A DNA stretch of 35,929 nt, taken from assembly GCA_018061565.1 (NCBI GenBank), contig JAGOTX010000003.1, forward strand, positions 1 through 35,929, in the 5' to 3' direction. The stretch comes from Pseudomonadota bacterium. GTDB lineage: Bacteria > Pseudomonadota > Alphaproteobacteria > Paracaedibacterales > UBA11393. The position numbers were made by a program, and so were the translations under genes. How positions within the stretch are numbered: the first letter of the stretch is position 1; each line of letters opens with the position of its first letter. Below the pieces are notes generated by a model. That model was not told where the DNA came from. It did not search any database and worked only from the letters and a program-made list of their open reading frames with translations. Shown here one piece after another: positions 25,456 through 29,831 of the stretch.

Positions 25456-26211
25456 TTAAGATGCAGTTTTTGGGGTCATTAAGGAAATTGCTTTTTCAGT
25501 CCAACTGCTATTCTTAAATTGTTTTTTAAGTTTTTCTAAATAGAATTTTGCTTGGCTTCGAACACCAAGAGCTTTATAAGCTTCAACAAGCCGGTAATAC
25601 GCTTCTTCAACTTGTCTTGATTCTGGATAATCATCAATAACTGTTTTAAACCGATTAATCGCAGAAACATAAGAATAGATATTCATGTAATAAATACCAA
25701 CGTCCATTTCTTTTGCTGCCATATGGTCTTTAACTAAAATACTTTTTTCTTTTGCATCTTTAGCATGCTCTGTACCTGGATAGCGTTGAATAAGCTCGTC
25801 AAAAAATGAAACACTTTCATCTGCAATTGTTTGATCTCTTTGAATAAGGGGGATTTGTTCATAAGCACAAATACCACGCATGTAAAGAGCGTAAGGGACT
25901 TCGCTGTGACCTGGATGAAGCTGAATAAAGACATTAAAAGCCTCTGATGCTTCTTCAAAAGAACCAGCACGGTAAAGGGAATAGGCACTTAACAGTTGCC
26001 CATTAATAGCATAGTCTGAATAAGGGTGATTTCTTTCAATTTCAGAAAAGATTTTTGCAGCTTTTTTAAAGTCTTTATTTGTCAGTTCTTTATTGGCTTG
26101 CTTGTAAATAACTTCTGGGTCTTTATCGGCAAAACTTTCCTCATCACCAGAACAAGACGCAAGAAAGAAAACACTTAAAAATGCAATACTTTTTTTTAAA
26201 TTAATCGTCAT
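25456..26211 (-). CDS. bamD: Outer membrane assembly lipoprotein BamD
   Basis: BamD is an essential lipoprotein partner of BamA in inserting beta-barrel proteins into the outer membrane. The 251-residue product has the lipobox FFLASC (Cys20) followed by tandem TPR-like helical repeats: YKQANKELTNKDFKKAAKIFSEIERNHPYSDYA, then AYSLYRAGSFEEAS and a large loop YALYMRGICAYEQIPLIQRDQT that is characteristic of BamD. The last repeat is AYKALGVRSQAKFYLEKLKKQF. Length is normal (about 245). It is the first gene of the bamD-lysS-lipoprotein-cca group and must have its promoter in the 26212-26350 region. Confidence 0.95.
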   Translation of the reverse strand: MTINLKKSIAFLSVFFLASCSGDEESFADKDPEVIYKQANKELTNKDFKKAAKIFSEIERNHPYSDYAINGQLLSAYSLYRAGSFEEASEAFNVFIQLHPGHSEVPYALYMRGICAYEQIPLIQRDQTIADESVSFFDELIQRYPGTEHAKDAKEKSILVKDHMAAKEMDVGIYYMNIYSYVSAINRFKTVIDDYPESRQVEEAYYRLVEAYKALGVRSQAKFYLEKLKKQFKNSSWTEKAISLMTPKTAS

Positions 26212-26288: not shown

Positions 26289-26344
26289 AAAACTATTAAA
26301 AGTCATTCAAAAAATTAACCGTTTCTTAATATATATCATGTTAA

Positions 26345-26667
26345 TCTAATGATGTAAGACGCATTAGGCGGGGAGGGATTAAGAGCGATCCCTTGACATT
26401 AGCAAGTTAGGAAAGGAGTACCTTAACCGAAAGAAATCTTACACACCTGTTCGTGTGGCATAATAAACCTCGATATCAAGGTTATTATATACACACATCT
26501 TCAAAGCGCAATATACTTTGATAACCGTTGAGTTATGCCTTGTTTAAAGGCCTCTAAAGCACCGGTTGGTTGCTATTGTTTCGTGGTGGAGGAGGTGGGG
26601 GCCGTGATCGATTTGGGTTTCTGTGGGGGCCCCTCAGAACACGAAGAATGCCCAAAATCAGTTTTTT
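26345..26667 (+). ncRNA. Candidate structured RNA gene, family not recognised
   Basis: This segment has no usable reading frame but is about 44% G+C by hand count (26341-26640), well above the neighbouring spacers. It is dense in inverted repeats: tgtaaga/tcttaca (26353-26359 with 26437-26443); agggat/atccct nearby at about 26374-26392; cacac/gtgtg (26442-26446 with 26453-26457); ataataaacct with aggttattat (26460-26488, one bulge); tcaaag/ctttga (26501-26506 with 26516-26521); gcctt/aaggc (26537-26551); ttcgtg/cacgaa (26580-26585 with 26640-26645); ggggcc/ggcccc (26598-26603 with 26628-26633). It ends in gatttggg/cccaaaatc followed by T6 (26662-26667), which sets the strand as plus. I looked for and did not find tmRNA (tag, T-loop), RNase P RNA (P4) or SRP RNA signatures. 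Ends are approximate and the promoter is not clear. Confidence 0.5.
26610..26667 (+). terminator. Probable terminator of the candidate RNA
   Basis: gatttggg (26610-26617) pairs with cccaaaatc (26651-26659, one bulged A), enclosing a GC-rich inner palindrome (ggggcccc, 26626-26633), and six T follow at 26662-26667. The long enclosed segment makes it less canonical than the terminator at 16854-16885. Confidence 0.45.
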
Positions 26668-26815
26668 CGTTAAGTTTCTCTTAAGAAAATCCTTATATTA
26701 ACTCTGTCTAAAAATAAAAATTTTGGTTTTGAAAGATCAAAAAGCTTAACAAGATTTTAAACAGATATTTAGTCTGATTAATATCCGCTTAAATATATCA
26801 CTTCACACGAAAACC

Positions 26816-26877: not shown

Positions 26878-27699
26878 ATGGAAACAATGACGTTATCACC
26901 CACTATACTGCCATCTATCGCTGTAAAAGCTTGGAAAGAACCTTTTGTAGACAACGATATTGCATCAAATATACTGTACAATTCTATTTCGTCTGATGAT
27001 TTAAACTTTATTCGTGTTACAGAAAATGGTGAAGAACTTATTGATTTAAAAAATATTAATCACCCAAGGTTAAAACCTTTATCGTCTATGGATCATACAA
27101 TTTTAGATTTAGATCCTAATTGTTCAAAAGTACGTTTTGGTGTTTTTAAAAGACTCCTTAACATGCTTGATTTATTACCAGAAAATATTGGTATAGCTTA
27201 CTTTGAAGGGTTAAGGCCTTTATATTTACAAAAACAATATTTTGATAAGAAATTTAAAGAAATGGCCAGCATTATAGAAAATGCTGAAAGCGCCTATATT
27301 GAAGCAAGTAAAAGTGTAGCGCCTTTTATTGATAATATCCCCCCCCATTCAACAGGTGGTGCCATTGATATGACTCTATATAAATGTGTTGATTTTAACT
27401 ATATCCCTTTAGATATGGGAAAATTTGATGTAACAACGGGGGAAAAAAATCAACAAGAAACCTTTTCAGAAAATACATCCAAAGAACAAAGAATCAATCG
27501 ATTATTGCTGGTTAATGCCGCAATAAAAGCGGGTTTTGTTAACTATGGTTTTGAATGGTGGCATTACAGTTATGGCGATAGAGCTTGGGCTTATGTTTTA
27601 AAAAAAGATGAAACGCTTTATGACATGGCTGTTTCAAAAGATGATCCAATCTTGTTAATCAAAAAGTCAGAATATATAAAATCAATTTTATCTTTTTAG
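26878..27699 (+). CDS. ddpX: D-alanyl-D-alanine dipeptidase (VanX/DdpX, peptidase M15D)
   Basis: A zinc dipeptidase expected to cleave D-Ala-D-Ala. The 273-residue product keeps the family residues: Arg113 in FEGLRP (transition-state Arg), the zinc ligands His157 and Asp164 in PPHSTGGAIDMTL (family form SxHxxGxAxD), and Glu226 and His229 in EWWHYSY (catalytic base and third ligand). There is no signal peptide, so a cytoplasmic enzyme is likely, as for VanX and DdpX. It stands alone with no vanH/vanA ligase or van regulator, and no ddp transporter genes, so a role in peptidoglycan turnover or use of released D-Ala-D-Ala is more likely than glycopeptide resistance. An eight-base C tract (27339-27346) encodes the two Pro just before the first zinc ligand. 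Confidence 0.88.
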   Translation: METMTLSPTILPSIAVKAWKEPFVDNDIASNILYNSISSDDLNFIRVTENGEELIDLKNINHPRLKPLSSMDHTILDLDPNCSKVRFGVFKRLLNMLDLLPENIGIAYFEGLRPLYLQKQYFDKKFKEMASIIENAESAYIEASKSVAPFIDNIPPHSTGGAIDMTLYKCVDFNYIPLDMGKFDVTTGEKNQQETFSENTSKEQRINRLLLVNAAIKAGFVNYGFEWWHYSYGDRAWAYVLKKDETLYDMAVSKDDPILLIKKSEYIKSILSF

Positions 27700-28389: not shown

Positions 28390-28511
28390 TAAAGCAAACC
28401 TTATAAATAAAAAAACTTTCTGATTTTAATATAAATGAGAATTTTTAATAAAAAGTTAACTTTTCCTCACTATACTAAAATCATCGTATGATTTTAAAAA
28501 AGGTATTTTTT

Positions 28512-29831
28512 ATGAAATTCAAACCATTTAAAAAGAATAAGGCTCTGTTACCAGTCATTATTCTATGTTCAACAATCAATATTTTTAGCGGAGCAATTGG
28601 TATTGTTCCACAACAAAATGTTATAAATCAGCACCCCCAAAACAATGATGAAGATGCTTCAGCTGTTGCTGCTCTTAAAAAATGTCCAAATACAAAGTAT
28701 CCTACATCACGTTATTTTGGCACAGGATTTGTTGGCATTATACCACAAGTTAAAATGACCATTAATGAGAATACTTGGACACAAAAAATGAACCAACCAT
28801 GCATTTTTGATGAAGCCGTCATTCGCGATCAATTCCAAACAGATATTGCACTTTGGCTTAATACAATTCTTGTGAAAAAAGGTGTTGGTGAAATGGTTGG
28901 GGGCAAAAAACTAAAAGCAAAACATATATCAAAACTCAATGAAACACAAAATTTTTTAAAAAGATGGTTTTTATTAATGGCATTTTCGCCTCTTAAATAT
29001 GTCACAAAGGATAATGCTGGCGCAAAGAATCCAGGAACACCAGATTACCAGATTCCTCAACCGTTCCCCTACCCTTTAGCTTCTGCATTAAGTCATGGTC
29101 AAAGAATGATTATAGAACTTCAAGACGTTGTCAATGGAAAAGGTCTTGATAGCGCGTTTTATAATTTACTTCTTGGTGGTGATACAGATGAAAAACCAAT
29201 AATAGACGAACTTCGAAGTTTTGCATCCCACGGAACACATCAAGAACCAAATGGAAAAGTTGCTGAAGATAAACTATTATCTGGTTTTATGAGCGCAATT
29301 CAACTCGATCACCATATGGTTGATGTTCCACTTGGTGGGGTCGGTAATAAAAATGAAATGGGCTTTTTTATTGGTGCTGAAGGACAAAGTTATAAAGTCG
29401 GTCAAGATACGGGCTTTGGCAATTTTCAACTTGGGCATATTTTTATTGGCGTGCATCGCTTTAATAATGGGGTATCGTCTTTACTTATGGGTGTTGAAAG
29501 TACAGCACCCCATAAAAATTCTCCCTTTAAAACAGGTGGGAAAAATCACAACATAACAAGCGGCATGAAAGATTCAACAACCAATCGTTCTGCAACGGGT
29601 GGACAAAAATGGGCAAACCTTTTAGGCGGTATGGCACCAGCTACATATGGCGGTATGATTATTAACGTAACACGTGTTGAACTACCAAAAATAAAACTCT
29701 TGTTTGATACCGTTCTTGCTATGCCAGAAAATCAGCAAGCGTTATTGTTTCAAAAAATATTAACAATGAATGCAAATGAAGCTAATCAATACTTAAGATC
29801 AATGCCCGAACTTGCAAGTGTCTTTGCTTAA
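28512..29831 (+). CDS. Exported protein of unknown function
   Basis: The 439-residue product starts MKFKPFKKNKALLPVIILC, a basic then hydrophobic signal peptide with likely cleavage near FSGA. An ATG 24 bases upstream (28488) is in frame, but 28512 has AAAAAAGG about 10 bases ahead and a better signal sequence. The mature protein is rich in Gly, Asn, Lys and His. It has two Cys close together after the signal (58 and 97), which could form a disulfide. Notable parts are YFGTGFVGIIPQVKM, LSHGQRMIIELQDVV, a Gly/Phe-rich stretch (MGFFIGAEGQSYKVGQDTGF) and the Leu/Asn-rich C-terminus QALLFQKILTMNANEANQYL. I recognise no domain. It is convergent with the exported helical protein at 30076-32244, with a palindromic repeat between them. 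Confidence 0.8.
   Translation: MKFKPFKKNKALLPVIILCSTINIFSGAIGIVPQQNVINQHPQNNDEDASAVAALKKCPNTKYPTSRYFGTGFVGIIPQVKMTINENTWTQKMNQPCIFDEAVIRDQFQTDIALWLNTILVKKGVGEMVGGKKLKAKHISKLNETQNFLKRWFLLMAFSPLKYVTKDNAGAKNPGTPDYQIPQPFPYPLASALSHGQRMIIELQDVVNGKGLDSAFYNLLLGGDTDEKPIIDELRSFASHGTHQEPNGKVAEDKLLSGFMSAIQLDHHMVDVPLGGVGNKNEMGFFIGAEGQSYKVGQDTGFGNFQLGHIFIGVHRFNNGVSSLLMGVESTAPHKNSPFKTGGKNHNITSGMKDSTTNRSATGGQKWANLLGGMAPATYGGMIINVTRVELPKIKLLFDTVLAMPENQQALLFQKILTMNANEANQYLRSMPELASVFA

Follow-up and report, generated by a model that had tools for sequence, protein, structure and literature searches.

The interval 26353–26667 of the window, by which we mean the whole analyzed stretch of 35,929 nucleotides on contig C59 of its own genome (G000; 1.25 Mb, 136 contigs), is probably one gene of a multi-copy, lineage-specific, structural noncoding RNA of ~300 nt that would be CtrA-driven, present at high dosage, and homodimerizing, with expression, dimerization, and CtrA binding being inferred. 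Comparison of the sequences establishes a set of dispersed intergenic copies with a common predicted fold and a TTAA-N7-TTAA box at a near-fixed distance, both within the order and in one genome outside it (G112).

The locus lies between bamD on the minus strand (25456–26211, TIGR03302 match) and an M15-peptidase gene on the plus strand (26878–27699). The gap of 666 bases between these two open reading frames, given in an earlier note on this DNA, was reproduced. The G+C enrichment described there is confirmed as well, with 0.44–0.445 over 26345–26667 compared to 0.245 and 0.233 in the adjoining spacers and 0.344 in the whole window, and the run of six T is found at 26662–26667. The description of the locus as highly foldable would not have been sufficient on its own. 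The folding energy is ordinary (MFE z-scores of −1.05 on the plus and −2.04 on the minus strand), such that the inverted repeats in the window alone are no proof of an RNA; the structure is backed instead by comparison. The unit begins before 26345, with a CtrA-type box at 26315–26329, and a further box is present at 26670–26684; both boxes, and the multi-copy nature of the locus, had been missed. The open frames inside the 26353–26667 RNA are all short, the longest having 47 codons, and the cores of the family contain indels of 1–6 nt. Further along the window, 28488–29831 encodes a predicted protein with a C-terminal match to Pfam Ntox11 (novel toxin 11; E 7.5e-8). The parts of the window copy are the following.

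26315–26329, plus strand: CtrA-type full site TTAACCGTTTCTTAA (TTAA-N7-TTAA), its center ~31–35 bp before the probable RNA start.
26342–26347, plus strand: −10-like hexamer TAATCT, with TATATT at the same place in other copies (copy alignment; inferred from position).
26353–26667, plus strand: structured RNA gene of ~315 nt from P1 to the T-run, with a probable start near 26352 (multi-copy alignment, Rfam-negative, models R1 and R2, covariation).
26353–26443, plus strand: Domain I, closed by P1, TGTAAGA (26353–26359) with TCTTACA (26437–26443) (covariation).
26373–26394, plus strand: P2 hairpin, GAGGGATT (26373–26380) with GATCCCTT (26387–26394) (covariation).
26453–26496, plus strand: P4 hairpin, with outer stem GTGTG/CACAC, in sister copies of the same genome GAATG/CGTTC (copy alignment, covariation).
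26472–26477, plus strand: self-complementary loop GATATC, a predicted homodimer kissing loop (palindrome covariation).
26501–26521, plus strand: P5 hairpin, TCAAAG...CTTTGA (RNA fold; other lineages have a hairpin of different sequence at the same place).
26523–26567, plus strand: P6 hairpin, AACCG...CGGTT (fold, copy alignment).
26583–26602, plus strand: G-run core GTGGTGGAGGAGGTGGGGGC, the most conserved sequence of the family, with a two-tier G-quadruplex pattern (alignments).
26610–26667, plus strand: P7 terminal hairpin, GATTTGGG (26610–26617) with CCCAAAATC (26651–26659) around GGGGGCCCC, plus T6, terminator-like in the own genome (read from the sequence).
26670–26684, no strand assigned: second TTAA-N7-TTAA site, 3′ of the T-run (copy alignment of the 3′ ends on C59, C126, C77, C131, C66, C113, C9, and C61).

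The window locus is one of at least 10–11, about a dozen, dispersed copies in its genome. A nucleotide search of that genome finds 12 places at E < 1e-49, and pattern searches return 11 copies of the 5′ stretch and 10 of the core. Many of these copies are located where contigs end, as the assembly is interrupted by the repeat. The block common to the aligned copies extends from the TTAA-N7-TTAA at 26315 to just beyond the T-run, the flanks being unrelated, and the copies differ at paired positions, as in the two versions of the outer P4 stem.

Relatives were also found in other genomes. A sequence-only core model of 77 positions (R1) detects the RNA in 7 of the 42 genomes of the order, with 2–12 copies each, and outside the order in G112 (8 copies); other matches in the class are single and weak. 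Members of another subfamily, termed type B, yielded a further core model (R2), with which 17 copies were detected in G022, 18 in G009, 11 in G034, 6 in G037, 4 in each of G030 and G038, 1 in G035, and a single weak one in G004. R2 also recovers the copies of the window's own genome (E 3e-7), and in the wider class it contributes 4 copies in G112 and 4 in G151, a genome consisting of one contig. The two models together thus give relatives in 12 of the 42 genomes of the order (one of them weak) and in two genomes outside. The copy number is ~8–25 in most carriers, with a maximum of ~25 per genome. The identity between genomes is mostly ~40–60% of the aligned positions, and within a genome it reaches 97% (G022 and G112). 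The remaining 30 members of the order have no R1 or R2 match, among them G031, a congener of G022; models built on sequence only may miss diverged copies. Matches to the pattern in Actinobacteria, Meiothermus, Planctomycetota, and others, and in one viral contig, were discarded, since all seven that were inspected (not covering all the Actinobacteria hits) were judged to have arisen by chance in GC-rich DNA. When one mismatch was allowed, the pattern hits in other members of the order were mostly coding glycine-rich repeats.

The box lies 37–41 nt before P1 in nearly all copies of all lineages. In the interval tested, an exact TTAA-N7-TTAA is present in 30 of 47 copies, compared to a mean of 0.9 and a maximum of 5 in shuffled sequences, and nearly all of the remaining copies are within one mismatch of it. 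Among the type B copies, 23 of 30 have the exact form; the copy on contig C26 of G027 has no good box. The published full site of CtrA is TTAA-N7-TTAAC (PMC3692519), and TTAA-N7-TTAA is given as the full site in a second source (PMC9005958). The sequence around the box differs between the copies of G001, suggesting that selection, rather than recent copying, is the likelier reason for its retention there. All five carriers tested have an OmpR-type regulator that matches the CtrA profile NF045991, above the cut-off in G000, G001, G022, and G027 and slightly below it in G112 (342 vs 350 bits); G009, G030, G037, and G151 were not covered. The best structure match of the regulator is CtrA itself (PDB 4qpj). 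In the absence of CtrA-binding or transcript data, it can be strongly inferred from the sequences that the RNA copies are under a CtrA-activated promoter. One type B copy of G022 (L329, G022:C93:33500-36200) precedes ctrA by ~200 nt and has the same orientation.

The copies share a recurring architecture, in which P1 closes a 5′ domain that includes P2 and P3, followed by the long P4, two more hairpins, the G-run core, and the GGG/GGNGGCCC hairpin P7. The covariation was counted on a separate global alignment with the ends trimmed at P1, the MAFFT alignment A3 having misplaced the 3′ strand of P1. Over 27 representatives, P1 is paired in 94% of the cases, with double changes in five of six pairs, while shuffles give a mean of 75% and a maximum of 81%, and slid partners give 49–60%. 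The stem occurs as GTAAGA/TCTTAC, GAGGGC/GCCCTC, GATGGC/GCCATC, GGGGG/CCCCC, and GAGAAT/ATTCT. For P2, the pairing in the same 27 representatives is 89%, with double changes in seven of eight pairs (shuffles at most 73%, slid controls 36–56%), and for the five P4 pairs adjoining the loop it is 95% in 21 representatives, with double changes in all five (shuffles at most 63%). The number of extra pair types is not above that of the shuffles, and the evidence for the fold rests therefore on the percentage paired and on the double changes. It should be mentioned that the ends of P1 were chosen by pairing and that P4 was centered by hand on the palindrome, so both figures are biased upward. With this reservation, the alignments demonstrate a common predicted fold that is kept by compensatory changes despite the divergence. 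The GGNGGCCC hairpin P7 recurs in other type A lineages, and its type B form is GGGCCCC. Only the copies of the window's own genome have an evident T-run terminator, the 3′ end elsewhere being uncertain. Four type B copies of G022 (L334, L335, L336, and L337) have an extra domain of ~130 nt beside the P4 hairpin.

The loop of P4 contains a 6-nt palindrome in all 21 representatives, with six different sequences among them; all 63 cells are Watson–Crick, and double changes occur at all three symmetric positions. A less biased estimate than this hand-centered test is provided by a fixed search rule (hairpin stem of at least 4, loop of 6–8, 6-nt palindrome), according to which 60 of 66 RNAs have a palindromic-loop hairpin, compared to 16% of dinucleotide shuffles, the other six lacking a clean palindrome. 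Family-wide, nine palindromes are found (CGCGCG, GATATC, GTATAC, AGCGCT, CGATCG, CGTACG, GAATTC, ACCGGT, and CACGTG), and in G151 AGTACT was read by eye. Neighboring letters of a palindrome cannot all pair within one loop, and the covariation argues therefore for pairing between two copies of the RNA. There are no dimerization data, and the homodimer formed through the P4 loop is an inference from these patterns. A similar argument has been made for OLE and GOLLD, where covarying palindromes of symmetric kissing loops were used as evidence for homo-oligomers, the OLE palindrome switching from GGCC to GAUC or AGCU (PMC12286853).

The main rival to a functional RNA gene is a selfish dispersed repeat, MITE-like or a retro-element satellite, that is, a promoter-plus-RNA unit whose RNA serves its own copying. 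We consider it unlikely, but it cannot be disregarded. The copies are scattered in unrelated intergenic sites, they are closely similar within genomes, and their distribution is patchy, as illustrated by the lack of a match in G031, which keeps this possibility alive. The neighbors of one G038 copy (L272, on G038:C4) sit beside two different G022 copies (L268 and L269), and such a different combination of shared neighbors suggests recombination between copies, a further point in favor of this rival. However, the flanks of a copy are no more alike than mismatched flanks (7.22 vs 7.01 for direct and 7.38 vs 6.95 for inverted comparison), and neither target-site duplications nor terminal inverted repeats were seen at the copy flanks, where the element ends are approximate. 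Around ~40 copies, the adjacent genes have mostly nothing in common and lie in both orientations, with no family recurring beyond rare pairs. A G022 copy has no nucleotide-level match in the plasmid collection and the window copy none in the phage collection, the single viral-contig hit to the core pattern being the one attributed to chance above. Moreover, the fold, the palindrome, and the CtrA box survive down to ~45% identity across families and orders, whereas decay would be expected of an element that is purely selfish.

In the G-run core, G runs with spacers of 1–3 nt are present in 81 of 93 cores, compared to 35% of shuffles, while the letters and the length of the core vary, the indels included. 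A two-tier G-quadruplex, predicted from the sequence pattern alone, would explain such a variable core. Downstream of the P7 hairpin, the motif WATRYCY occurs in 38 of 96 copies, mostly at 10–17 nt, and in 2 of 96 further downstream. Mimicry of a Shine–Dalgarno sequence through AGGAGG was discarded, as this motif is present in 35 of 58 type A cores but in only 7 of 39 type B cores and is hence not the conserved feature. The CsrB and RsmX/Y/Z RNAs have a response-regulator box upstream, occur in several copies, and have a purine-rich core. A sponge of this kind, driven by a response regulator and titrating CsrA through GGA motifs, is matched by the GGA-rich type A core, the multiple copies, and the box upstream, but it is very improbable here. 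No CsrA match was found in G022, G034, G038, and G009, which have from several to ~25 copies each, the type B cores are rich in GGC and GGT rather than GGA, and the family has no array of GGA hairpins. The CsrA match of the window's own genome (G000:C65:487-594) is below the cut-off and has an internal stop, suggesting a decayed gene. With CsrA missing in several carriers, the sponge is rejected for the family; at most, it might apply to some carriers, such as G001, G002, and G027.

We give even less credence to a leader or attenuator that acts in cis on the gene downstream, which in this case is the M15 peptidase at 26878. In the window the next gene is indeed on the same strand, starting ~210 bases on, and the RNA end is terminator-like, but over the ~40 copies the orientation of the downstream gene varies, and the neighboring families do not recur beyond the rare pairs already mentioned.

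As to the identity of the RNA, the earlier note had left open a strongly diverged known RNA or a lineage-specific one, and had proposed a cmscan search, a search for relatives, and a covariation analysis. At the gathering thresholds, none of the 4227 families of Rfam 15 has a hit in the whole window, the hits around the locus at E ≤ 10 are at chance level, and 20 loci with diverged members give only one neighboring tRNA above the gathering score. No hit to OLE, GOLLD, or ROOL was obtained in the window or in these 20 loci, the presence of each of these models in this Rfam copy being unconfirmed, and ARAGORN finds no tmRNA gene. With no known family found, relatives detected, and covariation positive by pair counting rather than by R-scape, the first option is not borne out, and the results support the second, namely a previously undescribed, lineage-specific structured RNA family that matches no Rfam family. 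A diverged housekeeping RNA such as tmRNA, RNase P RNA, or 6S fits the size class but can be practically set aside, since, apart from these negative searches, ~8–25 copies in most carriers fit poorly with a single-copy RNA such as tmRNA or RNase P. No paper on small RNAs of Paracaedibacter or noncoding RNAs of Holosporales was found in a literature search that did not include subscription papers and most preprints, and a 2025 review of Holosporales mentions neither small RNA, nor noncoding RNA, nor CtrA.

Taking the locus as a CtrA-driven structural RNA gene, the following scheme can be proposed. It is strongly inferred that each copy would be transcribed alone from its own CtrA-activated promoter, such that the whole set would be switched on simultaneously when the cell or developmental cycle is in its CtrA phase. 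The RNA is inferred to homodimerize through the palindromic P4 loop, and the G-run core together with the P7 hairpin is inferred to form the active site. Paralogues within a genome would be kept alike by gene conversion or recent duplication. The high dosage, the single regulator, and the self-pairing loop point together to an abundant structural RNA that would be made in the CtrA phase. The CtrA of Ehrlichia, which increases stress resistance, is expressed at a late stage of intracellular growth (PMC9005958), and by analogy we guess that the RNA may belong to the transmission form. It is likewise a guess that the RNA works in trans and at high dosage. Its most likely action would be to bind a protein or RNA partner and hold it while the cells are in the non-replicating form that passes from host to host; nothing in the data points to a specific partner.

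A more far-reaching reading, which we put forward only tentatively and which may well prove wrong, is that the family represents an RNA class not seen before, tied to the cell cycle or to the transmission phase. With up to ~25 gene copies fired together by CtrA, the non-replicating cell form of protist endosymbionts would be loaded with a dimeric structural RNA bearing a G-quadruplex. This RNA would store, hold, or shut down some core machine, a task that in other bacteria falls to proteins or to RNAs encoded by a single gene copy, for example 6S. To our knowledge, only a few large structured RNAs without a known role have been described in bacteria, and most of them are not known as multi-copy. 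The present family adds an RNA with many copies in reduced genomes, a promoter for a master regulator that the copies share, and nine interchangeable palindromes as evidence for dimerization. It makes both the dimerization, through compensatory changes in the loop, and the expression directly testable, and it points to a large, so far unrecognized RNA component of what CtrA regulates in Paracaedibacter-like endosymbionts.

Among the known systems, the alphaproteobacterial trans-acting sRNA EcpR1 is similar in being linked to cell-cycle control; as far as the accessible part of its description allows a comparison (PMC4414408), it has no Rfam-level similarity to the present RNA and differs in architecture and copy number. 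As regards the control, the closest precedent is the CcnA RNA of Caulobacter crescentus, with one CtrA box at the promoter and one in the terminal region (PMC8959179). The same arrangement is found in the copies of the window's own genome, where the second TTAA-N7-TTAA site, directly 3′ of the T-run, parallels the terminal box of CcnA. The 182-nt CcnA gene is located at the replication origin, and its CCCC loop acts on the ctrA and gcrA leaders (PMC8959179), whereas the present family consists of many dispersed copies of ~300 nt that are G-rich and have a palindromic loop; no direct sequence comparison of the two was made. OLE, GOLLD, and ROOL are, like the present RNA, large and highly structured bacterial RNAs, with which it shares a covarying palindromic loop able to pair between copies (PMC12286853). 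The Rfam search gives no relationship to them, and the family differs in its smaller size, its many copies per genome, its CtrA-type promoter, and its single predicted symmetric loop.
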